NCBI RefSeq assembly: GCF_000337795.1
Contig: NZ_AOLP01000015.1
Location: 1 to 58,941, forward strand
DNA from: Haloferax denitrificans ATCC 35960
GTDB taxonomy: Archaea > Halobacteriota > Halobacteria > Halobacteriales > Haloferacaceae
Reading direction: 5' to 3'
DNA: 58,941 nucleotides
The notes beneath the pieces are model-generated. The model made no database searches, was not told where the DNA came from, and was given only the letters and a program-made list of their open reading frames with translations. Shown piece after piece: positions 18,274-40,541 of the stretch (positions within the stretch are counted from its first letter, which is position 1; every line of letters starts with the position of its first letter). Both the position numbers and the translations under genes were made by a program.

Positions 18274-18285
18274 GACACGGACACA

Positions 18286-18550: not shown

Positions 18551-18558
18551 TTACAACC

Positions 18559-19053: not shown

Positions 19054-19064
19054 CTCGCTTCGAC

Positions 19065-19218: not shown

Positions 19219-19242
19219 GGATTACTACGAACCGTGGGGTCG

Positions 19243-22120: not shown

Positions 22121-23097
22121 GCGTCGGCCTCACCGACTACGGCGTCTCACTGCCGACGTATCACGTCACCGCCGAGGTCTACGAGGAGGTCTGGGGTCGC
22201 TTCGCGGCCCGCATCGACCGGAAGACCGTCCCGGCGTACGACGAGGACGCGATGACGCTGGCGACGGCGGCCGCGCGGGAAGTCGACGCGGCCGACGCGG
22301 AGACGCTCGCCGTCGCCACGACGACGCACCCGCAGGCCGGAACGCTCCTCAGCGGGCCGCTCTCCCGGTCTGTCGGTCTCGACGGGCCGTGTCGGACGCT
22401 GGAGTTCGGCAGTTCGTGGAAGGCCGGACTCGAAGCGCTCGACGCGGCGCTGTCGTTCGGCTCGGGACTGGTCGTCGCGTCCGATACGCCCGAGGCACCG
22501 TCTGACGAAGACACCGAACACATCCTCGGGGCCGGGGCCGCGGCGTTCGCCGTCGGCGACGACGACCCGCTGGCGACGGTCGCGGGAAGCGCCCACTACG
22601 TCGACGCCTACCTCCCGGCGAAGTTCCGGGACGGCGCGGACCTCACCGACCTCTCGCTCGGCGGCTACACGACCGAGGGGTTCGTCGAGGCGCTGTCCGC
22701 CGTCGTCGACGACGCCCTCGCGGACGCGGGGCTTTCGACCGACGACATCGACCACGCGGTGTTCCCGCAGGACGACGTGAAGATGTCGTGGCGCGGCGGC
22801 GGCCGACTCGGCTTCGACGCCGACCAGATGAGCGCCGGGTTCGTCGTCAATCGCATGGGGTTCGCGGCCGCCGCGTCGCCGCTCGTCGGTCTCGCGGCCG
22901 CGCTCGACGCGGCCGAGGCGGGCGCGCACGTCCTCGTCGCCGGCTACGGCTACGGCCACGGGGCGAGCGCGTTCGTCCTCGAAACCACGCCGGCAATCGA
23001 GGCACCGGACTCGGACGCGGGCGTCGACGACGCGCTCGACGCGACGACGGCGTTGGAGTACGGCGAGTTCGCGCGACTCCGGGAGGTGAGCCGCTGA
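22117..23097 (+). CDS. HMG-CoA synthase-like / thiolase-fold protein lacking catalytic residues
   Basis: 326 residues; ATGA overlap with the thiolase stop. The overall fold is that of archaeal HMG-CoA synthase: N-terminal VGLTDYGVSLPTYHV, a central LEFGSSWKAGLEALDAAL helix region and C-terminal GFVVNRMGFAAAASPL. By eye, the canonical catalytic positions are altered. The EFACKAG motif that holds the nucleophile reads EFGSSWKAG (residues 96-104, no Cys). The FHQP motif with the catalytic His reads FPQDD (216-220). The Glu-containing GSE motif reads ATTTH (67-71). A Cys occurs at residue 92 but is out of register. In archaea HMG-CoA synthase forms a channelling complex with thiolase and DUF35; here the protein may be a structural or acyl-channelling paralogue. 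Confidence 0.7.
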   Translation: MSVGLTDYGVSLPTYHVTAEVYEEVWGRFAARIDRKTVPAYDEDAMTLATAAAREVDAADAETLAVATTTHPQAGTLLSGPLSRSVGLDGPCRTLEFGSSWKAGLEALDAALSFGSGLVVASDTPEAPSDEDTEHILGAGAAAFAVGDDDPLATVAGSAHYVDAYLPAKFRDGADLTDLSLGGYTTEGFVEALSAVVDDALADAGLSTDDIDHAVFPQDDVKMSWRGGGRLGFDADQMSAGFVVNRMGFAAAASPLVGLAAALDAAEAGAHVLVAGYGYGHGASAFVLETTPAIEAPDSDAGVDDALDATTALEYGEFARLREVSR

Positions 23098-23516
23098 TGG
23101 GGGCGCACATCTCGATACCGATGTACGAGCGGACGGTCGGCCAGCGACTCGCCTTCGAGGGCGAACGCTGTACCGACTGCGGAACCGTCGCGTTCCCGCC
23201 GAAGGGCGCGTGTCCCGACTGCCGGAACGACGAGTTCGAGACGGTCGACCTCTCGGGAACGGGAACCGTCTACTCCCACACGGTGCTCTCGCCGGGCGGC
23301 GCGCCGCCGGAGTTCGCCGGACAGGCCCGCGCGGAGGGCCGGTACGTGGCCGCCATCGTCGAACTCGACGAGGGGCCGCGAATCACCGCGCAACTGACCG
23401 ATATCGACCCCGAGACGGTCGAAATCGGGATGCCGGTCTCGGGCCGAATCCGCCGCATCTACGAGGAGGAAGGCGTCGTCAGATACGGGTTCAAGTTCGG
23501 CCCCGCCGACGACTGA
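23097..23516 (+). CDS. DUF35 OB-fold protein with rubredoxin-like zinc ribbon (thiolase partner)
   Basis: The ATG at 23097 shares one base with the preceding TGA. 139 residues. Four Cys at 25, 28, 39 and 42 (CTDC and CPDC) form the N-terminal zinc ribbon. Residues about 55-130 form the OB fold, with GTGTVYSHTVLS and VSGRIRRIYEEEGVVRYGFKF. DUF35 proteins bind the CoA moiety and bridge thiolase and HMG-CoA synthase in an archaeal acyl-transfer complex, so the order thiolase, HMGCS-like, DUF35 predicts a three-subunit assembly. It is the last gene of the CoA operon. Confidence 0.86.
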   Translation: MGAHISIPMYERTVGQRLAFEGERCTDCGTVAFPPKGACPDCRNDEFETVDLSGTGTVYSHTVLSPGGAPPEFAGQARAEGRYVAAIVELDEGPRITAQLTDIDPETVEIGMPVSGRIRRIYEEEGVVRYGFKFGPADD

Positions 23517-23557
23517 GCCGTCGCCCGCCCGCCCGTCCGACCGCGTTTGGCATTCCG

Positions 23558-23638
23558 CGGTTCGGAGGTCGGAGCCGAGGAGCTTCGGTTCGGGAGGTCG
23601 GAGCCACGGTTCGGAGGTCGGAGCCGCGGTCCGGGAGG
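23558..23638. repeat. Imperfect tandem repeat CGGTTCGGAGGTCGGAGCC
   Basis: Three near-identical copies of a 19-20-base unit begin at 23558, 23586 and 23607, followed by a partial fourth at 23627. They lie in the 263-base gap between the DUF35 gene and the aldehyde dehydrogenase gene. The repeat is GC-rich and non-coding. It may be 3' untranslated sequence of the operon or simply slippage-prone spacer. Confidence 0.6.
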
Positions 23639-23689
23639 CGCGGCGCGCTCGTGTCGCGTGTACCCCTCCTATCGACCGCTCGTCGAGTT

Positions 23690-23740
23690 GGAATAATTCC
23701 TAATTCGAGAACGGAATTTGCCTCCAGTTAGATTTATTAA
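23690..23740 (+). promoter_or_regulatory. Inverted repeats and TATA-like box upstream of aldehyde dehydrogenase
   Basis: GGAAT-A-ATTCC (23690-23700) and AATTC-N7-GAATT (23702-23718) are two adjacent inverted repeats, followed by TTTATTAA (23733-23740), a TATA candidate about 40 bases before the ATG at 23780. The AATT-rich element resembles those before the other units of the catabolic block. Confidence 0.4.
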
Positions 23741-23779
23741 TGGCCGATTTGTTGTGCGTGGTAGACGAGGACAGTCAGC

Positions 23780-25306
23780 ATGCAGTTAGAACACTACAAC
23801 GACTCGGTGCAGGAGAACCACCGACAGGCGAGGGAGGACGCTCGGGCGCTCGGCGCGTTCGAGGCGTGGATAGACGGCGGTTCGCGGGCGGCCGCGAGCG
23901 GCGAGACGTTCGACACCCGCGACCCGGTCGTGGACGACCCCATCCTCTCGGTCCCCCGGTGCGACGAGGCGGACGTTGACGCCGCCGTCGAGGCCGCGTG
24001 GGACGCCTGCGACGGCGAGTGGGGACAGACGACGCCCGAAGAGCGCTCCCGAACGCTTCAGGAGTGGGTCTCGGTCCTCCGCGACCACCTCGACGAACTC
24101 GCGCTCTTGGAGAGCCTCGACACGGGCAAGCCCCTCGCGTACGCCGAGGGCGAGGTGACGAAGGGTCTCGACTTCATCGAGTACTACGCGAACATCTGCC
24201 GGGCCGAGGGCGGAAAGCAAATCGCGGCCGCGAACGACGCCCACATCTACACGCGCCGCGAGCCGTACGGCGTCGTCGGCTGTGTCACGCCGTGGAACTA
24301 CCCGCTCGTCCTCACCTCGTGGAAAATCGGCCCCGCGCTCGCCGCGGGCAACGCCGTCGTGCTCAAGCCCGCCGAACAGAGCCCGCTCACGGCGCTTCGC
24401 ATCGCCGAACTCTCCGAGGGCATCCTCCCCGACGGCGTCTTCAACGTCGTCCCCGGCTTCGGCGACGAGGCGGGCGCGTCCGTCACGGGCCACCCCGACG
24501 TTCGGAAGGTCTCCTTTACGGGCGAGGACGTGACCGGCGAGGCCGTCATGTCGGCGGCGGCGGAGAACATCACGCCGGTGACGCTGGAACTCGGCGGTAA
24601 GTCCCCGTTCGTCGTCTTCCCCGACGCCGACGTCGAACAGGCCGCAGAGACCGTCGCCGGGAGCATCACCTACAACACCGGCCAGTCCTGCGACGCCTGT
24701 TCGCGCGCTATCGTCCACGAGGACGTGCGCGACGAGTTCGTCGAGCGACTGGTCGAGGAAGTCGAGTCGCACACCATCGGCGACCCGCTGGCCGAAGACA
24801 CCACCTTCGGGCCGCTCGTCTCGCGGGCGCAGTACGACAAGGTGAACTCCTATCTCAAACTCGGGGTCGAAGAGGGCGCGACGCTCGCCACCGGCGGCGG
24901 CTCGGTCGAAGGCGAGGGCCTCGACGGCGGCTGGTTCGTCGAACCCGCGGTGTTCGTCGACGCGGAAAACGACATGCGAATCGCCCAAGAGGAGATATTC
25001 GGCCCCGTCGAGACGGTCGTCACGTTCAGCACCTACGAGGAGGCCATCGAACTGGCGAACGACGTGCCGTTCGGACTCGCGGCCGGCGTCGCCACCGAAA
25101 ACGGGTCGCTGGCGCACCGCGCGGCCGCGGACATCGACGCCGGGAGCATCTGGGTGAACAAGTACTACGGCCGAACCGTCACCGGAAGCCCGTTCGGCGG
25201 CTTCAAGCGCTCCGGGATGGGCCGCGAGTGCGCCCGAGACACCCTCACGAGCTACACGCAGGAGAAGACGGTCCACGTCCCCATCGAGCAGGACCCGACG
25301 CTCTGA
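23780..25306 (+). CDS. NAD(P)-dependent aldehyde dehydrogenase
   Basis: 508 residues, a full-length ALDH. Key residues: Asn173 in TPWNYPLVLTS, Lys196 in VLKPAEQSPL, general base Glu270 in LELGGKSP, and nucleophile Cys304 in NTGQSCDACSRA. C-terminal EEIFGPV and NKYYGRTVTGSPFGGFKRSG segments are present. The enzyme oxidises an aldehyde to the acid. Sequence style is that of betaine-aldehyde, aminobutyraldehyde and succinate-semialdehyde dehydrogenases. Between two class III aminotransferases and near a polyamine-type importer, oxidation of an amino-aldehyde or semialdehyde is the likely role (inference). It is monocistronic with its own promoter and is followed by a separately promoted aminotransferase. 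Confidence 0.88.
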   Translation: MQLEHYNDSVQENHRQAREDARALGAFEAWIDGGSRAAASGETFDTRDPVVDDPILSVPRCDEADVDAAVEAAWDACDGEWGQTTPEERSRTLQEWVSVLRDHLDELALLESLDTGKPLAYAEGEVTKGLDFIEYYANICRAEGGKQIAAANDAHIYTRREPYGVVGCVTPWNYPLVLTSWKIGPALAAGNAVVLKPAEQSPLTALRIAELSEGILPDGVFNVVPGFGDEAGASVTGHPDVRKVSFTGEDVTGEAVMSAAAENITPVTLELGGKSPFVVFPDADVEQAAETVAGSITYNTGQSCDACSRAIVHEDVRDEFVERLVEEVESHTIGDPLAEDTTFGPLVSRAQYDKVNSYLKLGVEEGATLATGGGSVEGEGLDGGWFVEPAVFVDAENDMRIAQEEIFGPVETVVTFSTYEEAIELANDVPFGLAAGVATENGSLAHRAAADIDAGSIWVNKYYGRTVTGSPFGGFKRSGMGRECARDTLTSYTQEKTVHVPIEQDPTL

Positions 25307-25387
25307 GCCGACCGCGGAACGGCCCCGCATCCTCTTTTGTCTGCACGGTCCCCGACAGCGGTCGCACTCTTCTCGGTTTCAAACGAA

Positions 25388-25450
25388 ACTATCCAATTTA
25401 GAATTTCTACAAACTAATTTGCTCTCAGTAAGACTTATTTCATTATAGGG
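25388..25450 (+). promoter_or_regulatory. A/T-rich promoter of the second class III aminotransferase
   Basis: An A/T-rich stretch of the 162-base gap contains CAAACTAATTTG (25410-25421, a 4-bp inverted repeat with CTAATT), then ACTTATTTCATTATAG (25433-25448), which offers TATA-like sequence 20-35 bases before the ATG at 25469. Confidence 0.4.
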
Positions 25451-25468
25451 TGCAGTCCATCGTGATAG

Positions 25469-26830
25469 ATGGCACAACAGCAGAACCACATCTTCTACAA
25501 GTGGGGAGGTGGTGTCGAGCCAGACCTTCCGCGAGTCGACCACGCCACCGACGAGTTTCTCGTGACCGAGTCGGGGGAGGAACTCGTCGACGCGGCGGCG
25601 GGTGCGGCGGTCACCAACCTCGGCCACTCGGTTCCGGGCATCGAGCAGATATTCGAATCGCAGTCCGCCGACGTTTCGTATCTCAGTCTCTCGCACTTCT
25701 CGCACGACGCGCCCGAGCAGTTGGCGCGGACGCTCGCGTCGCGGTCGCCGGGCGACCTGGAGAAAGTGTTTTTCACTAACTCGGGTAGTGAGGCGAACGA
25801 GGCAGCGTTCAAACTCGCCCGCGAGTACTTCCGCGCGCGCGGAAAGACCGAGAAGTCGGTCGTCGTCTCGCGGTGGCAGTCGTACCACGGGGCGACGTTC
25901 GGCGCGCTGTCGGCCACCGGGAACACGCTCCGCCGCCGCGGGTTCGAACCGTACCTCACCGACTGGGAGCACATCTCCCCGGCGTACCCGTACCGCTGGT
26001 CGTTCGACGGGACCGACGAAGAACAGGCCCGAGCGGCCGCCCGCGAACTGGAGACGACGATTCGACAGCGCGGTCCCGAGACGGTCGCCGCGTTCGTCGC
26101 GGAACCGGTCGGCGGCGCGAGCATTCCCGCGGCCGCCCCGCACCCGGCGTACTACGAGGAGATTCGCGCCATCTGCGACGAGTACGACGTGCTGTTCATC
26201 GCCGACGAGGTGATGACCGGGTTCGGGCGGACGGGCCCGCTTTTCGCCATGGAACGCTACGGCGTCACGCCCGACATGATGACACTCGGAAAGGGACTCA
26301 CCGGCGGCTACACGCCGATGAGCGCCGTCCTCGTGAGCGACGCCGTGGCCGACGAGTTCGCCCGCGACGACGTGTCGTTCGCTCACGGCCACACGTTCGC
26401 CGGAAACCCGCTTTCGGCGGCCGTCGCCAACTTCGTGGTCGAGCAGTACACCGACGGCGTGCTCGAACGGGGCCGAGCGCGCGGCGCGCAACTCGCCTCC
26501 GAACTCGACGCGCTCCGAGACCACCCGATGGTCGGCGACTTCCGCGCGGTCGGCCCGATGGTCGGCCTCGAATTCGTCGCTGACAGAGCATCGAAAGCGC
26601 CGTTCGACCCCGAACTGAAGGTGTACGAGCAGGTCTACGACGCGGCGCTCGACCGCGGCGTCTACACCTACCCGGGCCGCGGGTCAGTCGACGGCGTCGC
26701 GGGCGACCACCTGATGCTCGCGCCACCGCTGACGCTCAGTAAGGCGTCCGTCTCGAGAATTGCCACCGCCGTCGAAGCGGCCGTCGAAGCGGTGTACGAC
26801 CGAGTTTCCCGCGCGACGACGGCGCGGTAG
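25469..26830 (+). CDS. Class III PLP-dependent aminotransferase (second paralogue)
   Basis: 453 residues. PLP-fold markers: TNSGSEANEAAFKLAREYF near 103, SYHGATFGALSATG near 140, LFIADEVMTGFGRTG near 238, TLGKGLTGGYTPMSAVL near 270 with the Schiff-base Lys, and HGHTFAGNPLSAAV near 310. The KVFFTNSGSEANE and GRTGPLFA style is closer to omega-amino acid or beta-alanine:pyruvate transaminases than to the paralogue at 16936-18273, so the two probably act on different amines. It directly follows the aldehyde dehydrogenase in the same direction. An omega-transaminase plus aldehyde dehydrogenase converts a terminal amine to a carboxylate, which fits polyamine or omega-amino acid breakdown. Confidence 0.86.
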   Translation: MAQQQNHIFYKWGGGVEPDLPRVDHATDEFLVTESGEELVDAAAGAAVTNLGHSVPGIEQIFESQSADVSYLSLSHFSHDAPEQLARTLASRSPGDLEKVFFTNSGSEANEAAFKLAREYFRARGKTEKSVVVSRWQSYHGATFGALSATGNTLRRRGFEPYLTDWEHISPAYPYRWSFDGTDEEQARAAARELETTIRQRGPETVAAFVAEPVGGASIPAAAPHPAYYEEIRAICDEYDVLFIADEVMTGFGRTGPLFAMERYGVTPDMMTLGKGLTGGYTPMSAVLVSDAVADEFARDDVSFAHGHTFAGNPLSAAVANFVVEQYTDGVLERGRARGAQLASELDALRDHPMVGDFRAVGPMVGLEFVADRASKAPFDPELKVYEQVYDAALDRGVYTYPGRGSVDGVAGDHLMLAPPLTLSKASVSRIATAVEAAVEAVYDRVSRATTAR

Positions 26831-26839
26831 CGACCGCCC

Positions 26840-26896
26840 GCTCGCTCGCTCGCTCACTCACTCACTCACTCGCTCACTCACTCACTCACTCACTCG
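26840..26896. repeat. CTCA/CTCG tetranucleotide repeat
   Basis: About fourteen copies of a four-base unit (CTCG grading into CTCA) fill the gap between the convergent aminotransferase and SMC-like genes. The SMC-like stop codon (26886-26888) lies inside the repeat. Because the unit length is four, every frame meets TGA within a few codons, so slippage would change only the last residues. Confidence 0.8.
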
Positions 26897-28667
26897 GTGC
26901 GGCGGTCGAGTCCGAGACGACCGACCAGTCCGCGGGGTCGATGTCGTGTCCCTCGACGGCGCCGTGTTCGGGATACGCCGTCGTGACGAGATACGTCGCC
27001 CTCCCGGAGAGGTAGTCGGTCAGTCGCCCGAGGTTCTCGTCGGCGATGCCGCCGAGGCGGTCCACGAGCATGACCGGCACGCGTTCCGCCACGTCGAACG
27101 CCTCGTAGCCCGCGAGCGCCGTCGCGAGTCCGAGGAGTTCGACCTCGCCCTCGCTGAGCGCGTCGAGCGACGCCTCGCGGCCCTCGCGGGCGACGACCAG
27201 TTCGAACTCGCTCGTCAGTCGCGCGCTCTCGAACCCCGTCTCGAACAGCGGGACGATGTCCCGAATCGCGTCGTCGAACGCGTCTCGTGTCTCCTTCTTT
27301 ATCTCTTGTTTCCGCCGCCGGAGGCGGGTTATCTCTTCGGTGAGCGACTGACGCTGTGAACGCAGTGATTCGAGCTCCTCGGACTTCGACTCGGCCGATT
27401 CGAGTTCCGACTTCGCGTCGTCGAGGCGCGCCTTTGCGTACTTCAGGTCGCTTTCGATATCGGTCACCTGTTCGGCATCCGATTCGATTCGCTCGCGGAG
27501 GTCGTCGATTCGCTCGGCGAGTTCGTCGTCGCGTTCGCGCGCGTCGTCGAGGCGGCGTTCGAGGTCCGACCGGCGCTCGCGGAGCTCCCGAACGTCGGTC
27601 TGAAGCTCCCGTTCGCGTCGGCGTCGCTTCTCGCGCGATTCGACGCGCTCCGTGAGTTCCTCGACGCGTTCGCGGCTCGCCTCGGCCGCCTCGGTGCGGC
27701 GGTCGATTCGCTCGGCGAGGTCGTCGAGCCGCGCCGTCACTGACGAGGCGTCCGTCTCGGCACCGCAGACCCAACACGCGAGGTCGTCGTCGACGAGGCC
27801 GTGGGTCACGTCGGTCAGCAGTTCGGTCCGGTCTTCGGCCACGACGCGGCGGTTCGCGTCGTAGACGTCCCGAAGGAGTTCGATATCGCGTTCCTGCTGG
27901 CGGAGCTCCCGCTTCGCCGCGTCGAGTTCGCGCGCCAGCTCATCGTCGTCTTCCACGTCGAGTCCGTCGAGTTCCTCGCGGCTCGATTCGAGTCGCTCTC
28001 GGACCCGCCCGGCGGTCGATTCGAGCCGGTCGATGCGGCTCTGGACGCGGGAGCGCTCCGCGCGGGCGTCGCTGAGCGCCTCGCGCGTCTCGTCGCCGCC
28101 GGCGGCGTCCGCGGACGCCGCGCGCTTCGCTTCCAACTCCTCGACCTCGGCTTCGAGTTCCGACACTCGACCGGCCAGCGTCGGCAGGCGTTCGGCCGCG
28201 TCTTCGGCCTCCGAGAGCGCCTCGTCCACGCGGTCGCGCTCGCGGCGCGCCGCGGCGATGTTCGCGTCGATGTCCTCGAAGTCGAGCGGGCGCGTCAGGA
28301 GGGGTTCGAGGTCGTCGCCCTCGCGGACGGCCCACCGAATCTCGTTTTCCTCGCCGAGGAACGCGAACAGGTCGGCGCAGACGCGGTCGACCTCGTCGGA
28401 CAGGTACGGCTCGCCGGTCGTCCGGACGTGGCGTCCGTCTCGGGCCAACTCGACGGTGTACTCGCTTTCGTCCGTCGAAAGCGAGACGCGCCCCTCGGCC
28501 GCGCCCTCGGTCAGCGGCGACGCCGTCCCGAAGGCGGTCGCTATCGCGGCGAGGAAGCTCGATTTCCCCTGCCAGTTGCTCGCGCGGACCGCGTTCAACC
28601 CGGGTTCGAGCGTCGCGCTCCCGCGCCGAATCCCGGCGACGTTCTCCACGTCGAGCCGCCAGCTCAT
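26886..28667 (-). CDS. Archaea-specific SMC-related protein (Sph-like)
   Basis: 593 residues. N-terminal ATPase half: SNWQGKSSFLAAI near 30-42 is a Walker A. A long, highly charged coiled coil (about 130-480) is interrupted near 297-300 by CWVC, a Rad50-like zinc-hook Cys pair. C-terminal half: signature-like LSEGEVELLG near 517, then a Walker B region VMLVDRLGGI near 549 in which Arg follows the Asp where a catalytic Glu is usual. The protein is much shorter than true SMC (about 1,150 residues), as expected for this haloarchaeal family. It is translationally coupled to rdfA (ATGA overlap at 28664-28667). In Haloferax the corresponding Sph/RdfA pair is linked to cell-shape control, so a shape or cytoskeletal role is likely here. 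Confidence 0.82.
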   Translation of the reverse strand: MSWRLDVENVAGIRRGSATLEPGLNAVRASNWQGKSSFLAAIATAFGTASPLTEGAAEGRVSLSTDESEYTVELARDGRHVRTTGEPYLSDEVDRVCADLFAFLGEENEIRWAVREGDDLEPLLTRPLDFEDIDANIAAARRERDRVDEALSEAEDAAERLPTLAGRVSELEAEVEELEAKRAASADAAGGDETREALSDARAERSRVQSRIDRLESTAGRVRERLESSREELDGLDVEDDDELARELDAAKRELRQQERDIELLRDVYDANRRVVAEDRTELLTDVTHGLVDDDLACWVCGAETDASSVTARLDDLAERIDRRTEAAEASRERVEELTERVESREKRRRRERELQTDVRELRERRSDLERRLDDARERDDELAERIDDLRERIESDAEQVTDIESDLKYAKARLDDAKSELESAESKSEELESLRSQRQSLTEEITRLRRRKQEIKKETRDAFDDAIRDIVPLFETGFESARLTSEFELVVAREGREASLDALSEGEVELLGLATALAGYEAFDVAERVPVMLVDRLGGIADENLGRLTDYLSGRATYLVTTAYPEHGAVEGHDIDPADWSVVSDSTAAPSE

Positions 28668-29452: not shown

Positions 29453-29516
29453 TGTCTCGTTGCACGAAACTGGTGGCGCGACGGTAATAAGACTACGCTT
29501 GGCGGGCAACCTCGTC

Positions 29517-30374
29517 TCAGTCCCGGCCGCTGTCGTCTGTCTGTTGTGTCTCCACCCGCCGCTCGCCTTCCTGCTGTTCTGCTTCCTGTCGCTCTGCTTC
29601 TCGCTGTTCTGCTTCCTGCCGTTCTGCTTCCTGCCGTTCTGCTTCCTGCCGTTCTGCTTCCTGCCGTTCTGCTTCCTGCCGTTCTGCTTCTCGCTGTTCT
29701 GTTTCTTGCCGCTCTGCCTCCCGTCGCTCGGCTTGCCGTCGCTCGTTGCGCTGTTTGGTCCGGAACTGTCGGAAGCGCTCTTCTTGTTCGCGCTCGTCGA
29801 GGTACCGCCGGATACGTCGTTTCTCCACTTCCAACTCCGGGATGAGCCGCTGAGAGAGATAGTTGACGCGGAGCCGAAGCCGCCGAATCTCCGCGAGGAG
29901 ACGTAGGAGGACCGCCCGCATCTCCGCCAGCCTGACGACGTCCTCTACGACCGACTCGTAGGACCCGACGATTTCGTCGTCGAGCGCGCTCGTGCCGAGG
30001 ACGCCGTACCCCCGCCCGTCGAGCGACCGCCGCGCCGACGTGCTCAGAAAGAACGGGACGGTCAGCCCGACGAGCTTCGTCTCGGAGACGATGAGCTCCG
30101 TGTGAGTGCTCCGCGCCTCCGAGAGCGCGCGAAGCGCGATTTCGCCCTCCCGCTCTGCGCCCCAGACGTGGAGCTCAGCCGCGTCGCGGAACGCCTCGTC
30201 GGTCTCGCGGCGCAGTTCCGTCCACCGGTCTAACAGGTCGAGAAGGACGAAAACGAGACTGTCGCGTCGGCGTTCGAGGATGCGTTCTCCCTTCCGCGCG
30301 AGCGCTAGCTCGTCGGTCACCGAGAGTAACTCGCGGCGCGTCGGGGCCGTCCGCCGGTGTCGCCGATTTGGCAT
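29517..30374 (-). CDS. Stand-alone A/V-type ATP synthase subunit D-like protein with repetitive charged tail
   Basis: The start is taken at the ATG at 30374 (285 residues, opening MPNRRHRRTAPTRRELL). The pattern PTRRELLSVTDELALARKGERILERRRDSLV is that of subunit D (central rotor stalk), and the C-terminal helix RLRVNYLSQRLIPEL followed by IRRYLDEREQEERFR is also diagnostic. The usual RNxMG-like centre is not conserved. Residues about 215-285 are an added tail of pentapeptides such as EAERQ, encoded by 15-base DNA repeats. No other ATPase subunit gene is nearby, so this is a paralogue and probably not the rotor subunit of the main ATP synthase. It may act as a two-helix coiled-coil scaffold. 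It lies upstream of rdfA on the same strand, 64 bases apart. Confidence 0.75.
   Translation of the reverse strand: MPNRRHRRTAPTRRELLSVTDELALARKGERILERRRDSLVFVLLDLLDRWTELRRETDEAFRDAAELHVWGAEREGEIALRALSEARSTHTELIVSETKLVGLTVPFFLSTSARRSLDGRGYGVLGTSALDDEIVGSYESVVEDVVRLAEMRAVLLRLLAEIRRLRLRVNYLSQRLIPELEVEKRRIRRYLDEREQEERFRQFRTKQRNERRQAERREAERQETEQREAERQEAERQEAERQEAERQEAERQEAEQREAERQEAEQQEGERRVETQQTDDSGRD
29571..29735. repeat. 15-bp coding minisatellite in the subunit D-like gene
   Basis: About ten tandem copies of a 15-base unit (core TGCCGTTCTGCTTCC on the plus strand). The five or six central copies, about 29610-29695, are almost identical. On the minus strand they encode the pentapeptide series EAERQ. 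The unit is a multiple of three, so copy-number changes would alter tail length without frameshift. Confidence 0.85.
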
Positions 30375-30400: not shown

Positions 30401-30410
30401 TTGATATACT
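30401..30410 (-). promoter_or_regulatory. TATA box of the subunit D-like gene
   Basis: On the minus strand AGTATATCAA lies 27-36 bases upstream of the ATG at 30374, a good TATA position for a short-leader haloarchaeal message. Confidence 0.45.
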
Positions 30411-30437
30411 TGTGTCACCGACACGTCCCAGCCGATT

Positions 30438-30460
30438 TGACAAGGACTAAGCCGTTGTCA
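30438..30460. promoter_or_regulatory. Palindromic operator candidate, copy A (TGACAA-N11-TTGTCA)
   Basis: TGACAA (30438-30443) and TTGTCA (30455-30460) are perfect inverted arms (one extra T/A pair extends them to seven) around an 11-base spacer containing ACTAAG. It lies 21 bases before the ATG of the ABC exporter gene at 30482 and between that gene and the divergent subunit D-like gene. The same design recurs at 37262-37284 and 40477-40499. Confidence 0.6.
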
Positions 30461-30481
30461 ATATCGACTCGAACACGAGCT

Positions 30482-31465
30482 ATGTCTGGACACACGGCCG
30501 CCGAGTCGACGCGCCCGGCGGTCACGGCGACAGCCGTGAGGAAGCAGTACGGCGACACCGTCGCGGTTCGGGACGTGTCGCTCGACGTTCACGAGGGCGA
30601 GGTGTTCGGTCTCATCGGCCCGAACGGGGCCGGGAAATCGACGCTCCTCGGCCTGCTGACGGGGACGCGAATCCCGACCGAGGGTTCGGTTCGGGTGTTC
30701 GGCGAGTCGCCGACCGCGGTCGACCGCTCGCGGATGAGCGTGCTCCCGCAGGAGTTCTCGCCCCACCGGCGACTCTCGGGCCGCGAACTCGTCTCTTACT
30801 ACGCCGGGCTCTACCCGGACCCGCTGTCGGTCGACGAGGTACTCGACCGGGTCGGTCTCGACGCCGGGGACGCGGCGACGGCCTACACCGACCTCTCGGG
30901 GGGTCAACAGCGCCGCGTCTGCGTCGGCGCGGCGCTCGTCAACGACCCCGAACTGCTGTTTCTGGACGAGCCGACCACCGGCATCGACCCCGCGGGCCGC
31001 CGCGACGTGTGGGACCTCGTCGACTCGCTGGCCGACGGCGGGACCGCCGTCGTGCTCACCACGCACTACATGGCCGAAGCCGAGCACCTCGCCGACCGCG
31101 TCGGACTCCTCACGGACGGCGAACTCGTCCGCGTCGGCCCGCCCCGGGACCTCGTCCAGCGCTTCGGCGGCGAGACCCGACTCGCGGTCCGGACCGAGCG
31201 CCCCCGCGCGCTCGACCTCGACGCGACGCCCCTCGACGGCCGCCGGTACGGCGACTACGAGTACCGCTTTTTCGACGCCGGTCCCGACGACCTGACCGCG
31301 ATGCTCGACCACCTCGACGCGGCCGACATCGCCTACGAGGAGGTGAGTCTCGTCCGCCCGACGCTGGAGGACGTGTACCTCAACCTCGCCAGCGAGCGCG
31401 GCCACGACTGCATCGCCAGCGCCGGTCCGGCGGGCCTCGCCGGGAACGCCGAGGTGACGCGATGA
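30482..31465 (+). CDS. ABC-2 type exporter ATP-binding protein
   Basis: The start is the ATG at 30482 (327 residues). Walker A GPNGAGKST at 46-54, Q-loop SVLPQEFSPHR near 84, signature LSGGQQRR near 140, Walker B LLFLDEPTTG near 162, H-loop LTTHYM near 195. The C-terminal 90 residues are the DUF4162-like regulatory extension usual in these subunits (RPTLEDVYLNLASERG). It overlaps its permease gene by four bases. The cargo is unknown; this class exports drugs, lipids or antibiotics. The palindrome just upstream probably controls the pair. Confidence 0.85.
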   Translation: MSGHTAAESTRPAVTATAVRKQYGDTVAVRDVSLDVHEGEVFGLIGPNGAGKSTLLGLLTGTRIPTEGSVRVFGESPTAVDRSRMSVLPQEFSPHRRLSGRELVSYYAGLYPDPLSVDEVLDRVGLDAGDAATAYTDLSGGQQRRVCVGAALVNDPELLFLDEPTTGIDPAGRRDVWDLVDSLADGGTAVVLTTHYMAEAEHLADRVGLLTDGELVRVGPPRDLVQRFGGETRLAVRTERPRALDLDATPLDGRRYGDYEYRFFDAGPDDLTAMLDHLDAADIAYEEVSLVRPTLEDVYLNLASERGHDCIASAGPAGLAGNAEVTR

Positions 31466-32313
31466 CGGCCGCGGAGACGGGCGGAACGGACGAGACGGCC
31501 GCGGCGGTCGAGACGAGAGAGACGGCCGACGGCGGTCAGACCCGCGGGTTCGCCGAGGCGGCCCGCCGGGTCCGCGCGGAGGCCGTCGCCGAGACGCGCG
31601 CGTTCATCCGGCGGCGGACGGCCGTCTTCTTCACGTTCTTCTTTCCCGTCTTCATCGTCCTCATCTTCGGCGTCCTCGTCAAGACCGGCGCGACCGGCGG
31701 CCTGTTCTCCCGCCCGGACACGTACTACCTGCCCGCGTACCTCGGCGTCGTCGTCGTGTTGACGCCCCTGTCGCGGGTCGGAAGCACCGTCGCGCGAAAC
31801 CGGGCGTCCCGCCGCTTCGAGAAGCTGGCGACGACGCCGCTTTCGCGTCTGGAGTGGCTCTCCGCCCATGCGGCCGTGAACGTCGCGCTCATCGGCCTCG
31901 CGGGCGTCCTGCTCGTCGGCGTCCTCGCCGCCGTCGGCGACCTCGGCGCGGCCCCCTCGCTCGGCGGCGACGCGCTGGTCGTCGCCTTCCTCGTCGTCGG
32001 TATCGCCCTGTTCTGCGGGCTCGGCTCGCTCATCGGCTCGCTCGCGGACTCCGAAGACGGCGTCATCGCCGCCAGCAACGCCGTCGGCATCCCGATGGTC
32101 CTCCTCGCGGACACGTTCGTCCCCGCGTCCAGACTCCCCGCGGCGCTCCGCCCGGTGGTCGACGCGCTCCCGCTCACCTACTTCGCGCGCGGCGTGCGCG
32201 CCGCCGTCGCCGGCGGCCAGCTCCCGACCGCGCTCTCCGACCTCGCTATCCTCTGTGGCTTCGCCGTCGCGCTGTTCGCGCTCTCGGCGCGACTGCTCCC
32301 GTGGCGCGAGTGA
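31462..32313 (+). CDS. ABC-2 type transporter permease
   Basis: 283 residues from an ATG that overlaps the ATPase stop (ATGA). A Thr/Glu-rich cytoplasmic N-terminus of about 50 residues precedes six hydrophobic helices: FFTFFFPVFIVLIFGVLV first, then YLPAYLGVVVVLTPL, and so on. The intervening RNRASRRFEKLATTPLSRLEWL loop is the typical ABC-2 cytoplasmic coupling region, and LPLTYFARGVRAAV near the end is characteristic. With the ATPase it forms a homodimeric exporter. Confidence 0.84.
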   Translation: MTAAETGGTDETAAAVETRETADGGQTRGFAEAARRVRAEAVAETRAFIRRRTAVFFTFFFPVFIVLIFGVLVKTGATGGLFSRPDTYYLPAYLGVVVVLTPLSRVGSTVARNRASRRFEKLATTPLSRLEWLSAHAAVNVALIGLAGVLLVGVLAAVGDLGAAPSLGGDALVVAFLVVGIALFCGLGSLIGSLADSEDGVIAASNAVGIPMVLLADTFVPASRLPAALRPVVDALPLTYFARGVRAAVAGGQLPTALSDLAILCGFAVALFALSARLLPWRE

Positions 32314-32319
32314 GGCCGC

Positions 32320-34758
32320 TCACTCGCCGTCGCCGTTCCGGATGTGATAGTCGTCGCGGCGGCGCTTGAACCACCGCGTCACCCACGAGATGACGCCGAG
32401 GTCGCGCTTCGCCATGATGACCGTGCTCGCGGCGTCGCGGCCGACCGTCTCCGGAATCGCGCCGAAGACGAGCTGTTGAAGCAGGCCCTCTCTCGTCGCC
32501 CCGATGACCGTCAGGTCGAACTCCTCGGTCGCGGCGACGATGGTCGCCGCCACGTCCTCGCCCTCGCGGACCGAGGTCGTCACCCTGACCTCGTCGTCGC
32601 CGACCGCGGCGGCCGTCGAGTCCACCCGGCGCTGGGCGTCCTCGCGGTCGCTCTCGTCGGCGTCGGGCGCGACGACGTTCATCACGTGAACCGTGGCGTC
32701 GTTGGTCCGCGCGATGGCGCGGCACACCTCCGCGGCGAGTTCGGCGTGCGGGCCGCCCGCGGTCGGCAGGAGAATCGAGTCCACCTCGCCGTCGGTCGGG
32801 CCGATGCGCTCGACGAGCACGTCGCAGGGGGCCTTGGTCACGACCTCGTCGACGTTGCTCCCGAGGATGTAGTCGCGGCGGCGACCCCGGCCGCGCCAGC
32901 CCATCAACACCACGTCGCTGTCGTGTTCCTCGATGGTGTTGAGGATGGCCGTTCCGGCGTCGTGGCCCAGCCTGACCGTCCCGCCGACGGGCACGTCGGC
33001 GTCGGTCGCCAGCTCCATCACGGCGGCGATGGTCTCGCGCTTCTCGTCGACGAACCGCCGCCCCTCCGAAATCGGCGTCTGCGACGGCACCTCGACGGCG
33101 CTCATCACGAGAATCTCGGCGTCGCGGTCGCGCGCCACGTCGATGGCGGTCCGCATCAACTGCGCCGCGTTGTCGGGGTTGGCAATCGGGACGAGCACCT
33201 GCGACTCGCGCCGCTCGGGGGCGCGTTCGGTCACGACGGTCGGGGTCTCCTCTTCGAGCTTCTCGGCCTCTTTGCCCTCGGAGTAGCCGTAGTACACGAC
33301 GAGTCCGAGCGCCATCCAGACGGCCGTGGTCACGAGCGCGACGAAGCCCTCTGACCCCGCGCCGAGCCCCGGCGTCAGCCCGAGTTCGAGGAGCAAAAAC
33401 GGCGTCAGGATGAACTGGAGAACGATGCCGATGAGCGGGGGCCACGGCATGTACGGAATCTTGTACGTCCGCGGCAGGTCGGGGTGGGTCGCCCGCATCT
33501 TGACGACGGTCCAGTTCACCTGAATGAACAGGAAGATGAACATGATGTCGGCGGCGGCCGCGACGCTCTCGATGGGGAGCAACACGGCCATGAGACCGAT
33601 GAGGACCGCCGAGAGGCCGATTGCCCAGTGGGGCGTCCGCTTGTCGCCGTGGATGCGCCCGAAGAAGCCCGGGAGGACGCGGTCCCGGCCCATGGCGAAC
33701 GACACCCGCGAGGAGGAGTAGATGGTCGCGTTGAGCGCGCTCATCGTCGCCGCGAGCCCGGCGAACAGGAGGAGCGGGACGCCGTACGGGACGAACTGCC
33801 CGGCGGCCTCGATGATGCCGAGTTCGCCGAGGTTGCCGAGGACCTGCCACGTCGGCGCGGCGGTCGTGAGTCCCGCGCGACTCGCGAGCTCGGCGGTCAC
33901 GTCGATACCGCCGATGGCCGCGAAGGCGACGAGGACGTAGATGGGGACCACGATTGCCATCGAGTAGAACACCGCCTTCGGGACGTTGGTGCCGGGGTCG
34001 ACGACCTCCTCGCCCGACTGGACGATTATCTCGTAGCCCTCGAAGGCGATGTAGGTAAAGCCCATCGCGCCGATGACGCCGACGAGGCCGTTGGGCGCGA
34101 ACGACGGACTGTCGAGGAACGTCGCCGTCCAGTTCGGCTCGCGCACCGTCGCGAGGATGCCGAAGGCCACGAAGACGCCGAGGATGAGAATCTTGATGGT
34201 CGTGACGACGACGCCCGCCTTCCCCGTCTCCTCGGCCCCGCGGTAGTTGATGTAGGCGAACGCGAGCACCATCACCACCGCGAGCAGTTTCTCCACGAGC
34301 AGGCGGTCGAACAGGCCGAACAGGGCGAACCCGTCGGGCAGGCCGGCGAACACCACGAAGAACTCGGTGAGGAAGACGCCGAACGTCACGGCGTAGAGCG
34401 CGCACGCGACGGCGTGGGCGAACCAGCTCATCCACCCGGCGTAGAAGCCGTTGGGGTCGACCAGCGCCTCTTTCACCCAGAGGTAGCCGCCGCCCGCCTC
34501 GGGGAACGCCGCCCCGAGTTCGGCGTAGGAGACGGCGGTGAACATCGCCACCAGTCCGTTGAGTATGAACGCCACCGTGAGCGCCGGGCCGGCCAGCCCG
34601 GCCGCGAATCCGGTCAGCGCGAAGACGCCCGCGCCGATCATCGCGCCGACGCCGATAAACGTGATATCGGCGAGGCTCATGTCGCGCGAGAGTTCCGTTT
34701 CCACCGACTCTGCACCGGGTGCGTCGCCGCCCCCGGCGGTCGATTGCGTGTCGGCCAT
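32320..34758 (-). CDS. APC superfamily amino acid permease fused to two UspA domains
   Basis: 812 residues. Residues about 20-475 are an APC-type transporter with around twelve helices, including the first-helix motif VGAMIGAGVFALTGFAAG and EAGGGYLWVKEAL. Residues about 505-640 and 650-785 are two universal stress protein domains. The first has DSDVVLMGWRGRGRRRDYILGSNVDEVV, close to the ATP-binding G-2x-G-9x-G(S/N) pattern; the second has a degenerate version (VIGATREGLLQQLVFGAIPE). Such fusions are common in haloarchaea and may couple uptake to nucleotide or stress state. A structured element lies 28 bases upstream of the ATG, and secY is the next gene upstream on the same strand. Confidence 0.87.
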   Translation of the reverse strand: MADTQSTAGGGDAPGAESVETELSRDMSLADITFIGVGAMIGAGVFALTGFAAGLAGPALTVAFILNGLVAMFTAVSYAELGAAFPEAGGGYLWVKEALVDPNGFYAGWMSWFAHAVACALYAVTFGVFLTEFFVVFAGLPDGFALFGLFDRLLVEKLLAVVMVLAFAYINYRGAEETGKAGVVVTTIKILILGVFVAFGILATVREPNWTATFLDSPSFAPNGLVGVIGAMGFTYIAFEGYEIIVQSGEEVVDPGTNVPKAVFYSMAIVVPIYVLVAFAAIGGIDVTAELASRAGLTTAAPTWQVLGNLGELGIIEAAGQFVPYGVPLLLFAGLAATMSALNATIYSSSRVSFAMGRDRVLPGFFGRIHGDKRTPHWAIGLSAVLIGLMAVLLPIESVAAAADIMFIFLFIQVNWTVVKMRATHPDLPRTYKIPYMPWPPLIGIVLQFILTPFLLLELGLTPGLGAGSEGFVALVTTAVWMALGLVVYYGYSEGKEAEKLEEETPTVVTERAPERRESQVLVPIANPDNAAQLMRTAIDVARDRDAEILVMSAVEVPSQTPISEGRRFVDEKRETIAAVMELATDADVPVGGTVRLGHDAGTAILNTIEEHDSDVVLMGWRGRGRRRDYILGSNVDEVVTKAPCDVLVERIGPTDGEVDSILLPTAGGPHAELAAEVCRAIARTNDATVHVMNVVAPDADESDREDAQRRVDSTAAAVGDDEVRVTTSVREGEDVAATIVAATEEFDLTVIGATREGLLQQLVFGAIPETVGRDAASTVIMAKRDLGVISWVTRWFKRRRDDYHIRNGDGE

Positions 34759-34785
34759 CAGTTGAACTCTCGAAGGGCGGGCAGA

Positions 34786-34857
34786 AAAACCCCGATGTGT
34801 GGCGGCCCGGATTCGAGCCGCCGTCGTCGGGTTCTCACCCGCAGAATACGGGGTTTT
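34786..34857 (-). ncRNA. Predicted three-way-junction structure upstream of the permease-UspA gene
   Basis: Between secY and the permease gene an outer stem of nine perfect pairs (AAAACCCCG at 34786-34794 with CGGGGTTTT at 34849-34857) encloses two inner hairpins: GGCGGC/GCCGCC (34801-34806, 34817-34822, ten-base loop) and CGGGT/ACCCG (34828-34832, 34837-34841, four-base loop). Read on the minus strand it ends with GGGG followed by five T, 28 bases before the ATG at 34758. It could be a secY terminator or a structured 5' leader of the permease. The type given is a best fit: a separate RNA is not shown. Confidence 0.4.
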
Positions 34858-34881
34858 CTCGCCCCGGTTCGGCTCGGCGCG

Positions 34882-36348
34882 CTACCCGCCGAACATCGTC
34901 CGCATCATGGGGTGCATCTCCATGAGCTGTTCTTCGGCGATTTCCTCGTACAGCTTGTACGTGATAGAGACCGTGAGGAGGAGCGAGGTCCCCGAGACGC
35001 CGCCGATGGTGCCGAGCATGTTCGCCATGACGGCGAGCAGGCCGACGAGGACGCCGCCGACGACCGTCACCTGCGGGATGTACCGCTCCATGACCCGCTC
35101 TATCACCTGCGGGTTGCGGCGGAAGCCGGGAATCTGCATCCCGGAGTTCTGAATCTGCCGCGCGGTCGCCTCCGGACCCATGTCGGCGGTCTCGACCCAG
35201 AAGATGGAGAAGATGGCCCCGCCGACGAGCATCAGCGTCAGGTCGATGGCGACGCGGACGAGAATCTGCCACGGCTCCTGCGACGCCGACCCGAGCCACC
35301 ACATCCACTGGCTGGGCGCGTGAATCGGGTTCAGGTAGTAGAACAGGCCGCCGGTGACCTGCCCGCTCGTGTACTGGCCGAGCCACGCTGGCATGCCGAC
35401 CCACTGGCTGTTGAGGATGCGCCCGAGGAACTGGACGTTCGCCTGCAGGGCGCGGACGAAAATCATCGGCAGGACGCTCGCGTAGATGAGCTTCACGGGG
35501 AAGCGACCGCGAGCGCCCTTGACGCGGGCGTGCGAGAGGGGAATCTCGACGCGGACGCTCTCGGCGTAGACGACGATGCCGAAGATGAGAAGCGTCGTGA
35601 TGAGCGGGACGATGCCGCCCACGCCGAACAGGAGCGCCTGTATCCCGCCCGCCGTCGCGAGCGACGGGACCGTCTCGGTCCCGGCGAGGACGTGGACCCA
35701 CTCGGAGACGATGCCGGTCGTCGACGCGCCGAAGGCGGGGTCGGCGAAGAGGCCGCCGACGAGGCGCTGGCTGACGCCGGCGATGATGAACAGGCCGACG
35801 CCGGAGCCGACGCCCCACTTGCTGACGACTTCGTCCATGAACAGCACGAGCGCGCCGCCGGCGAATATCTGCGCGAAGATGAGCCACTTCACGCCGACCG
35901 CTCCGACGCCGAGGGCGCTCGCGACCGCCGGGTCGGCCGGGAGGTAGCCCCCGGCGAAGACGATGGGGAGGCCTTGGAGGGCGATCATCCCGAAGACGAG
36001 CAGTTTCTGGAGGCCCTGATAGAGGATTTGGTCGCCCGGGTCGTCCGTGTCGAGGCCGAGCAGGTCCCCGCCCTGTAGCAGTTGGAGGACGATGCTCGCG
36101 GTGACGATGGGACCGATACCCAACTGGAGAATCGTTCCCTGTCCCCCGCCGAGGATGGAGCGGAACTGCCCGAAGATGTCCTGGCTCCCCGTCCCGACGC
36201 CGAACAGCGTGACGTTCGTCAGGAAGAAGTACAGGACGAGAATCCCGGCGGTCCAGCCGAGCTTTCGGCGGAACGGGACGTGGCCGTCCGGGCGGGCCAC
36301 GGCGGGCATCCGACTCAGAACCGGTGCTGCGGTGTCTTTCCAACTCAT
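34882..36348 (-). CDS. secY: Preprotein translocase subunit SecY
   Basis: 488 residues from the ATG at 36348; an upstream in-frame ATG would add 20 unlikely residues. Opens MSWKDTAAPVLSRMPAVARP and has ten predicted helices. Recognisable elements are the LQLGIGPIVTASIVLQLL stretch of helix 2, VVSKWGVGSGVGLFIIAGV, the cytoplasmic loop with VKGARGRFPVKLIYASVLPMI, and the C-terminal LYEEIAEEQLMEMHPMMR. SecY is the protein-conducting channel for Sec-dependent export and membrane insertion. In most archaea it follows rpl15 at the end of the spc ribosomal-protein operon; here the upstream neighbour is a membrane protein of unknown role and no ribosomal gene is in the window. Confidence 0.93.
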   Translation of the reverse strand: MSWKDTAAPVLSRMPAVARPDGHVPFRRKLGWTAGILVLYFFLTNVTLFGVGTGSQDIFGQFRSILGGGQGTILQLGIGPIVTASIVLQLLQGGDLLGLDTDDPGDQILYQGLQKLLVFGMIALQGLPIVFAGGYLPADPAVASALGVGAVGVKWLIFAQIFAGGALVLFMDEVVSKWGVGSGVGLFIIAGVSQRLVGGLFADPAFGASTTGIVSEWVHVLAGTETVPSLATAGGIQALLFGVGGIVPLITTLLIFGIVVYAESVRVEIPLSHARVKGARGRFPVKLIYASVLPMIFVRALQANVQFLGRILNSQWVGMPAWLGQYTSGQVTGGLFYYLNPIHAPSQWMWWLGSASQEPWQILVRVAIDLTLMLVGGAIFSIFWVETADMGPEATARQIQNSGMQIPGFRRNPQVIERVMERYIPQVTVVGGVLVGLLAVMANMLGTIGGVSGTSLLLTVSITYKLYEEIAEEQLMEMHPMMRTMFGG

Positions 36349-36509
36349 GGTCGATTGCGAGTGGCTGTTGGCGATTGCATGGTCTGTCGCGCCGACCGGC
36401 GTCGTCACTACGCGAGCGGCGTCCGCACGGGATGCCGTCGCTGTGCTCGCGAATCGGCGTTTCAGTCAGTCGTGGCCAGTCGTCGCGTATAACTGTATCG
36501 ATGCGGTGA

Positions 36510-37220
36510 CTATCCGTCGGCCGGCGTCGGTGCCGACGGGGACGCCGCGGACCCGGCCGTCGGAACCGGTTCGTCGAACGATTCGCGCGGCTCGGCGTCG
36601 ACGACACGGAGCGGACGCCGCCGGCCCGCCCGGTCGAACGCGGCCACGCAGTCGTCGTCCCACGGCGGGACCGCGACGAGGACGACTTCGCGGAGCGTGT
36701 CGCGCTTCGTCGCCGCCAGCGGTCCCCACGGGTGCGAGACGAACTGCCCCGGCGTCCGCCCCGGCGCGGTCGCGAGGTCGACGCCGAAGACGCCCCGGAC
36801 CGCCGCGCCGGCGCTCGGGTGGACGAAGTGGCTGAACACCCGTCGGGTCTCGTCGAGCGACTCCGCCCCGTCTAACTCGCCCGCGGCGGCCGTGCCGAGC
36901 GACAGCGATTCGCGGCTCGGTTCGGCGCGCGCCGCCCGGTCCAACAGCGCGTCGAGCAGTCCGCGCGTGACGTACACCGCCTCGCGCTCCGCCCCGCCGC
37001 GTCGCCGAGCGCGACGCGGCCCGACGAGCCGGGTGGCGACGGCGACCCACCAGAGGCCGACGCCCAGCACTTCGGCGTCGCTCGCGGCCCGTAGCTCCCA
37101 CGGGGGATGCGGCAGTCCGAGTCGAAGCGTCGTGACCTGCACGGCGAGTCCGAGGAGGACGAGGACGGCTCCGAGCGCGGTGACGAGACGAGTGAGGCGG
37201 GCGACGGAATCGCGGTTCAT
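36510..37220 (-). CDS. Membrane-anchored protein of unknown function
   Basis: The start is taken at the ATG at 37220 (236 residues), giving a short basic N-terminus before the first hydrophobic helix (about 8-28). A second helix lies near 48-64. The remaining 160 residues are soluble, with FSHFVHPSAGAAVRGVFGVDL, GQFVSHPWGPLAATKRDTLREVVLVAVPPWDDDC as conserved-looking pieces. I do not recognise a family. Copy B of the palindromic motif lies 42-64 bases upstream of the start, the same spacing as copy C before the gene at 39984-40436. Confidence 0.65.
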   Translation of the reverse strand: MNRDSVARLTRLVTALGAVLVLLGLAVQVTTLRLGLPHPPWELRAASDAEVLGVGLWWVAVATRLVGPRRARRRGGAEREAVYVTRGLLDALLDRAARAEPSRESLSLGTAAAGELDGAESLDETRRVFSHFVHPSAGAAVRGVFGVDLATAPGRTPGQFVSHPWGPLAATKRDTLREVVLVAVPPWDDDCVAAFDRAGRRRPLRVVDAEPRESFDEPVPTAGSAASPSAPTPADG

Positions 37221-37261
37221 CGGTGTGCTGTGGTCGGTCAGTCGCGGTGTCGTTTTCGGTT

Positions 37262-37284
37262 TGGCAATCACTAAGTGGTTGTCA
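37262..37284. promoter_or_regulatory. Palindromic operator candidate, copy B (TGGCAA-N11-TTGTCA)
   Basis: Arms TGGCAA (37262-37267) and TTGTCA (37279-37284) differ from a perfect palindrome by one base, and the 11-base spacer again contains ACTAAG. It lies between the divergent genes starting at 37220 (minus) and 37520 (plus). Confidence 0.6.
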
Positions 37285-37314
37285 GATGTTTCAGAGTCTC
37301 CATCCTTGAAAAAG

Positions 37315-37359
37315 ACTATAAGCGTCCACGCGAAACCCCCGATTGCCGTGTTTCACGGC
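37315..37359 (+). promoter_or_regulatory. TATA-like box and hairpin in a long leader
   Basis: ACTATAAG near 37315-37322 is a TATA-like sequence 31 bases after motif copy B. About 25 bases on, GCCGTG-TTT-CACGGC (37345-37359) is a perfect 6-bp hairpin. A transcript starting near 37345 would carry about 175 untranslated bases before the ATG at 37520. The rest of the 37221-37519 gap shows no gene. Confidence 0.35.
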
Positions 37360-37519
37360 CACGAAGCGGCCAACTGCTACCATCGTCTTCGATCTGATAG
37401 CCCCCTCGGTGATAGAGCCTGCCCGGTGTCGTCACCGTTGACCGCTTCGACACGCGACACCCCATCCGACGCAGTCCCCTTGTTTCGGCATCGCGTCGGC
37501 GGGTGCGCGCTCGACACCC

Positions 37520-37885
37520 ATGACGAGTACACAGCCACGATTGCCGGTCGAACGCTCGCTCGCTCGAACGACGCTCGGCGTCGACCTCGCGTCGGCGGCG
37601 GCGCTCGCCGTCGCGGCCGTCGTGTTCCGCGGCCCCCCGGCGGAGGTCGGCGACGACGTCGTCGCCAGCGTCCTCCTGTTGGGCGTCGCCTGTGCCGGCC
37701 TGTTACAGCTCGCGGCGCGTGGCGACCTCTCCTACGCCACGAAGTCCGCGGGTACCCTCGTCGGCCTGTGGCTCGTCGGCGTGTCGTTCGACCTCGGCGC
37801 GGGTCACCTCCTGATGTGGGTCGGCGTCGTCGCGGGCGGCTGTGTCGTCGCGACGCACGCCGCGCTCGTGCGCGCCGCCCTCTGA
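37520..37885 (+). CDS. Small membrane protein, four probable helices
   Basis: 121 residues. Hydrophobic stretches at about 22-40, 48-64, 76-92 and 98-118 suggest four short transmembrane helices with little soluble sequence. The N-terminal 20 residues are basic and cytoplasmic by the positive-inside rule. No conserved motif or family was recognised. It precedes the ClC channel gene in the same direction by about 75 bases and could be co-transcribed with it. Confidence 0.6.
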   Translation: MTSTQPRLPVERSLARTTLGVDLASAAALAVAAVVFRGPPAEVGDDVVASVLLLGVACAGLLQLAARGDLSYATKSAGTLVGLWLVGVSFDLGAGHLLMWVGVVAGGCVVATHAALVRAAL

Positions 37886-37961
37886 CCCGCCTCGCGGCCG
37901 CTCGCCGGTTCGGCGTTCGAAACGAAACTGACAAACGCCCCATCGAGCAAGAGTGACTCGG

Positions 37962-39923: not shown

Positions 39924-39924
39924 G

Positions 39925-39977
39925 CCGACCGCCGAGCCGACCGCCGAGCCAACCGCCGAGCCGACCGACGAGTCGGC
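39925..39977. repeat. 12-bp GC-rich tandem repeat ending in a stem-loop
   Basis: About four copies of CCGCCGAGCCGA-type units fill the 60-base gap between convergent genes, ending in the hairpin GCCGAC (39960-39965), six-base loop, GTCGGC (39972-39977). It probably separates the two converging transcripts. Confidence 0.5.
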
Positions 39978-39983
39978 GGAAAA

Positions 39984-40436: not shown

Positions 40437-40476
40437 GTCGAACTCTCGTCGCGGCGTCGGTTTATACGAACCGGTT

Positions 40477-40499
40477 TGAAAACCACTTAGGGGTTGTCA
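40477..40499. promoter_or_regulatory. Palindromic operator candidate, copy C (TGAAAA-N11-TTGTCA)
   Basis: Arms TGAAAA (40477-40482) and TTGTCA (40494-40499) with one mismatch and an 11-base spacer containing ACTTAG (CTAAG on the minus strand). It sits just upstream of the TATA-like box of the gene at 39984-40436. Confidence 0.6.
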
Positions 40500-40541
40500 C
40501 GGCCCCCGCGACGCACGCTTCGAGGGGCGGTTTCGCGTCGC

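Follow-up and report, generated by a model that had tools for sequence, protein, structure and literature searches.

The window, a stretch of 58,941 nucleotides from the genome of Haloferax denitrificans ATCC 35960, harbours a gene for a paralogue of the A/V-ATPase rotor subunit D (hereafter orphan D), which lies 64 nt in front of an RdfA-family gene (rdfA2). The latter overlaps by 4 nt with a gene for an archaea-specific SMC-related protein (ASRP2). On the other side of D, genes for an amino acid permease, a second SecY (SecY2), a membrane-type protein, a 150-residue protein and a DUF106 protein follow on the same strand, and a 25-bp palindrome, approximately TTGACAACnnCTTAGnnGTTGTCAA, is located upstream of D, of the gene before SecY2 and of the gene for the 150-residue protein (Table 1).

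Table 1. Features of the orphan D locus (positions in the window; a dot marks features given without strand)
Feature	Positions	Strand	Remarks
15-bp tandem repeat coding for the EAERQ-type tail	29567-29721	.	10.3 copies, 85% matches
Orphan A/V-ATPase subunit D paralogue, 285 aa	29517-30374	-	ATG at 30374; PF01813, core dN/dS, D fold
rdfA2, divergent RdfA-family gene, 262 aa	28664-29452	-	PF21811, about 128-129 bits
ASRP2, archaea-specific SMC-related protein	26886-28667	-	NF045487, 457.6 bits; 4-nt overlap with rdfA2
TATA-like box of rdfA2, in the gap below D	29485-29491	-	By eye; CGTAGTCTTATTACCG strictly conserved in all orthologous loci
TATA-like box of D	30402-30408	-	Distance to the ATG about 30 nt; leaderless-type promoter, by eye; TATATC conserved in five orthologous loci
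25-bp palindrome TTGACAAC-GGCTTAGTC-CTTGTCAA upstream of D	30437-30461	.	Retained in Haloferax sp. Q22 (L036) despite absent ABC genes
Amino acid permease with Usp domains	32320-34758	-	70-72% identity to the Haloarcula and Halobaculum module proteins
SecY2, plasmid-type SecY	34882-36408	-	PF00344, 233 bits; 71% identical in Haloarcula plasmid module
Membrane-type protein, about 235 aa, upstream of SecY2	36510-37219	-	Start inferred; Haloarcula orthologue 51% over 136 aa
Palindrome upstream of SecY2 operon	37261-37285	.	Orthologous site in Haloarcula
150-aa protein below third palindrome	39984-40436	-	
Third palindrome, before gene for 150-aa protein	40476-40500	.	
DUF106 protein, EMC3/TMCO1-like (membrane insertase family)	40542-41456	-	Orthologue L128:5776-6690, PF01956, 142 bits

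In a profile search, orphan D is matched by ATP-synt_D (PF01813) with 128.5 bits (cut-off 25.7, E = 3.8e-37), residues 15-207 corresponding to positions 1-195 of the 196 in the profile, i.e., to its whole length. A single-sequence AlphaFold model of the protein (mean pLDDT 73.5) exceeds a pLDDT of 90 across much of two shaft helices and falls below 50 in residues 79-131. When this model was submitted to Foldseek, subunit D of the Thermus V/A-ATPase ranked first among PDB entries (E = 6e-6), and the Enterococcus D was also top-ranked; VIA-align rows were set aside as generic coiled coils. Judged from the sequence and the model, orphan D is a genuine subunit D with a predicted complete two-helix shaft fold. 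The original prediction of a paralogue, whose core resembles the rotor subunit at both ends of the coiled coil, was thus borne out, as PF01813 matches end to end and a separate D is encoded elsewhere in the genome. Public records label the protein “V-type ATP synthase subunit D”, a name that is probably misleading as to its function.

The separate, canonical D (C9:360656-361237; 199 bits with PF01813) belongs to an operon that also contains the genes for subunits I, K, E, C, F, A and B, and therefore encodes a complete A-ATPase. No gene for another A-ATPase subunit was detected in the window or in the orthologous loci, including A- or B-like genes at E = 1e-3, and the predicted lack of an ATPase operon accordingly holds for these regions. 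The canonical D also rules out that orphan D is the sole D gene of the genome, the one finding that was to overturn the idea of a paralogue. Since the complete A-ATPase operon has its own D and no ATPase subunits are encoded in the window, orphan D, being neither co-encoded with A-ATPase subunits nor a single D, is not the working rotor; it was probably recruited to a new job.

Second D genes are rare among haloarchaea. A family census of 392 haloarchaeal genomes, cross-checked by individual matches and a genus search, yielded a real, unlinked second D in at least six; listed are four Haloferax genomes, one other member of the Haloferacaceae (G266), whose orthologue is 55% identical to the Haloferax orphan D, and one genome with a different orphan type (G285). 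Loci of orphan D are known from H. sulfurifontis, H. massiliensis and Haloferax sp. Q22, and the gene is also present on two Haloferax plasmids in PLSDB; it is plasmid-borne in those relatives for which complete plasmids are available. Further matches were not counted, either because they fell below the cut-off (G021, G068, G231), were split over contig ends (G040), or stemmed from an incomplete gene at the border of a contig with 83% identity to canonical D (G086). With these discounted, a widespread occurrence of a second D was rejected.

The core of orphan D evolves with a dN/dS ratio of 0.11-0.17 (ten pairs), which is lower than that of most rdfA2 and ASRP2 pairs and argues that the protein is in use. 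By this sequence-based measure orphan D is under strong purifying selection, and a decaying pseudogene is ruled out. In a phylogenetic tree, the orphans from Haloferax and G266 share a stem of approximately 2.6 changes per column and the canonical haloarchaeal D proteins differ little; the tree carries a long-branch warning, and the exact point of origin is unsure. The residues shared by archaeal and Thermus D, as expected of a working rotor, are incompletely represented: of 38 rotor positions at which euryarchaeal and Thermus D agree, orphan D keeps 26 and has lost 12, and nine of the latter are also lost in the G266 orthologue. The losses mostly reside in the two coiled-coil helices, where EF is replaced by VL and RRVNALE by LRVNYLS. 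Both PTR at the N-terminus and RVN in the C-terminal helix are kept. Contrary to the claim that the middle motif is not conserved, GxxxP and GYGxLG remain, and E76 G77, G103, P107 and GYGxLG (residues 122-127) are invariant in an alignment of the orphans, the second orphan type and canonical D. The charge of the protein is inverted; the core has a predicted pI of 9.9 (10.2 in the G266 orthologue) versus 4.8 for canonical D, and this basic core stands amid a proteome of acidic proteins.

These features bear on the main rival of the adaptor role discussed below, according to which orphan D, under control of its gene neighbourhood, replaces canonical D in the housekeeping A3B3 ring or plugs it, thereby altering or blocking its activity; the long C-terminal helix would then project from the ring. 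The complete D fold, in which both shaft helices are present, agrees with such a function, as does the retention of 33 of 54 universal D positions including PTR and RVN, given that Thermus D itself keeps 38. However, E33, F34, R158, A162, E164 and K194 are lost although Thermus D retains them, and this occurred even though the partner subunits would be ordinary haloarchaeal ones. Together with the strong charge inversion, these losses render an alternative rotor or brake unlikely, albeit worth serious consideration.

The C-terminal tail of orphan D is charged, helical in the AlphaFold model and indeed built from DNA repeats, as had been noticed originally. Yet the EAERQ-type array is a lineage-specific trait rather than a feature of the family: orthologues comprise 240-285 residues, the length of the tail varies between them, and the G266 orthologue from another genus extends only about 20 residues beyond the core. 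Canonical D also possesses a shorter charged tail, and the EAERQ tail looks like an ordinary repeat expansion thereof.

In six loci, D, rdfA2 and ASRP2 adjoin one another in the same orientation, while the flanks of the trio vary on both sides. The divergent pair of ABC transporter genes beside D (30476-32320) is missing at this place in Haloferax sp. Q22, and approximately 15 kb between ASRP2 and the next conserved gene (about 11200-26850), which include ABC transporter, aldehyde dehydrogenase- and aminotransferase-like genes, are absent from three orthologous loci. As predicted, D lies just upstream of an RdfA-family gene adjoining an SMC-like gene (PF21811 and NF045487, respectively). The pair is not a main copy, however: RdfA2 reaches only about half the family score of the genome's two main RdfA proteins (249 and 238 bits) and is 23-25% identical to these two, the copies with which it was compared. 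On these values the pair is a divergent extra copy of a plasmid type. According to the study on the Haloferax volcanii RdfA-Sph3 cell-shape locus, haloarchaea possess several RdfA paralogues, most of which adjoin SMC-like genes (PMC10869688). The window shares with that locus, as described there, an RdfA-family/SMC-like pair in the same order, and differs by the divergent plasmid type of the pair and the D paralogue in front; neither the D gene nor its setting with SecY2 and the EMC3-like gene is mentioned in the passages of that work consulted.

The association of D with this pair was examined at two levels. Among 15 Haloferax genomes the co-occurrence is exact, since four contain D as well as the divergent pair and 11 contain neither. 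This constitutes weak evidence, as the trio represents a single inherited plasmid block. In other genera the correlation breaks down: the RdfA2-ASRP2 type is also found in Halosolutus, Haloarcula, Halorubrum, Halobaculum, Haloterrigena and Halomarina (46-54% identity), and no D gene is listed in the annotated stretches bearing the pair or the larger gene set. Most plasmids with an RdfA2-ASRP2 pair lack D. In G266, D has unrelated neighbour genes, and the nearest divergent RdfA-ASRP pair resides on the same replicon at a distance of about 365 kb. This 596-kb replicon (contig C3, L187-L216) contains five sites with RdfA-family matches and four with SMC-like genes. The rarity of a second D and the unrelated neighbours in G266 would fit a passenger gene, i.e., a duplicate that was retained on a plasmid next to accidental neighbours and has no role among them. 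The strong purifying selection and the conserved promoter and palindrome argue against this view, which we regard as quite improbable.

The palindrome occurs three times in the window versus 0.26 sites expected, and it recurs in the corresponding gene sets of four other genera. A matrix derived solely from Haloferax sites, applied to 141 kb of such DNA from other genera, detected eight sites of at least 14 bits, seven of which exceeded 20 bits; the same DNA reversed yielded none, and a 596-kb control replicon contained no site above 15 bits. Promoter-associated sites in at least five haloarchaeal genera include L175 4883, 14182 and 15194, L176 17017, L177 14179, and L130 5931 and 9481. Palindrome-like places in C4 and C8, one about 250 nt before a hydrolase gene and one inside glyA, were left uncounted. 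The regulator CsmR binds TATCA-N4-TGATA (PMC13286277), a motif unlike the palindrome, and its assignment as a CsmR site is not supported. In Haloarcula, a palindrome is situated 60 nt ahead of the gene orthologous to the one that precedes SecY2, and in Halosolutus, where D is absent, it is located directly above the TATA-like box of rdfA2. The latter arrangement suggests an insertion of D downstream of the palindrome and in front of rdfA2. The two genes may be transcribed separately, since rdfA2 retains a strictly conserved TATA-like box below D.

The genes accompanying the palindromes are conserved beyond Haloferax. In Haloarcula, Halorubrum and Halobaculum, the RdfA2-ASRP2 pair occurs together with the EMC3-like DUF106 gene, the product of which is 51-56% identical in three other genera, and Haloarcula adds SecY2 (71% identical) and the permease (72%). 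The stretch from 32320 to 41456 of the window is common to Haloferax and Haloarcula (L175 6701-20069) at 51-72% identity. An orthologue of the 150-residue protein has no match in Pfam, and no paper linking DUF106, SecY and haloarchaea was found in the literature. D, RdfA2-ASRP2, SecY2, the EMC3-like DUF106 protein and the permease form one plasmid module, which other genera possess without D.

FliJ and YscO, which form the stalks of export ATPases in flagellar and type III systems, provide a precedent for a rotor-like coiled coil outside ATP synthase. An analogous stalk acting with SecY2 and the EMC3-like protein might be envisaged, since the palindrome connects D to the SecY2 operon and Foldseek retrieved YscO (4mh6, E = 0.033). 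Yet this match is weak, coiled coils match easily, and the sequence of orphan D is clearly that of a subunit D. Moreover, a partner hexameric ATPase was not found, as the window and the orthologous loci revealed no gene resembling those for subunits A and B of the A-ATPase (E = 1e-3), and the SecY2 module of other genera does without D. An export stalk is therefore very unlikely.

We tentatively favour, at a confidence that falls somewhat short of even, that orphan D is a neofunctionalised rotor subunit paralogue in a regulated plasmid module, and that it serves as an adaptor for RdfA2 and ASRP2, or for DNA, the partner being one that we infer. A regulator binding the palindrome would govern both D and the SecY2 operon, and the rod formed by the basic coiled coil would link to the acidic RdfA2 (pI 4.3 in an orthologous plasmid) and SMC-like ASRP2 (pI 4.5), or to DNA, instead of turning inside an ATP synthase. 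The adaptor role is favoured by a second D existing beside a full A-ATPase operon with no ATPase subunits nearby and a low dN/dS, by the loss of 12 of 38 rotor positions, most of which a 55%-identical orthologue has lost as well, by the opposite charges of D and RdfA2/ASRP2, by the gene order that is kept while flanks change, and by the palindrome that D shares with two other module genes. It is weakened by RdfA2-ASRP2 pairs without D in other genera, by the G266 orthologue away from any such pair, by the separate rdfA2 TATA-like box, by the single inherited block underlying the Haloferax co-occurrence, and by the fact that DNA or the acidic A3B3 ring would be equally plausible binding partners of a basic core. 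The scaffold role in shape or chromosome organisation that was proposed originally is possible.

Alternatively, orphan D might bind plasmid DNA together with the SMC-like protein and act in plasmid maintenance, as a nucleoid or partition factor. The basic core amid an acidic proteome, the plasmid location in relatives and the SMC-like neighbour are consistent with such a rod. The core adopts the subunit D fold, however, without a match to a DNA-binding domain in Pfam, and most RdfA2-ASRP2 plasmids lack D, which makes this explanation rather unlikely.

Compared to the Thermus V/A-ATPase D (PF01813; 3a5c/6qum chain G), the adaptor candidate is alike in its whole-length sequence, shaft fold, PTR and middle G/P motifs, and unlike in being a second copy without ATPase operon, in its lost rotor positions, basic core and expanded charged tail. 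More doubtful than the adaptor role itself is the broader scenario that the shaft of a rotary ATPase found a use apart from any ATPase, namely in an envelope or shape module that is plasmid-borne, palindrome-regulated and composed of RdfA2/SMC-like proteins, a second SecY and an EMC3-like insertase. If true, orphan D would be the shaft of a rotary motor that has left the motor. The gene marks a conserved plasmid module (RdfA2-ASRP2, SecY2, EMC3-like protein, permease) with a control signal of its own, and this module makes testable why haloarchaea hold several RdfA-SMC pairs. The second orphan type in G285 (L100 9515-10219, minus strand) has no ATPase genes around it, is 50% identical to canonical D and keeps 43 of the 54 universal positions.
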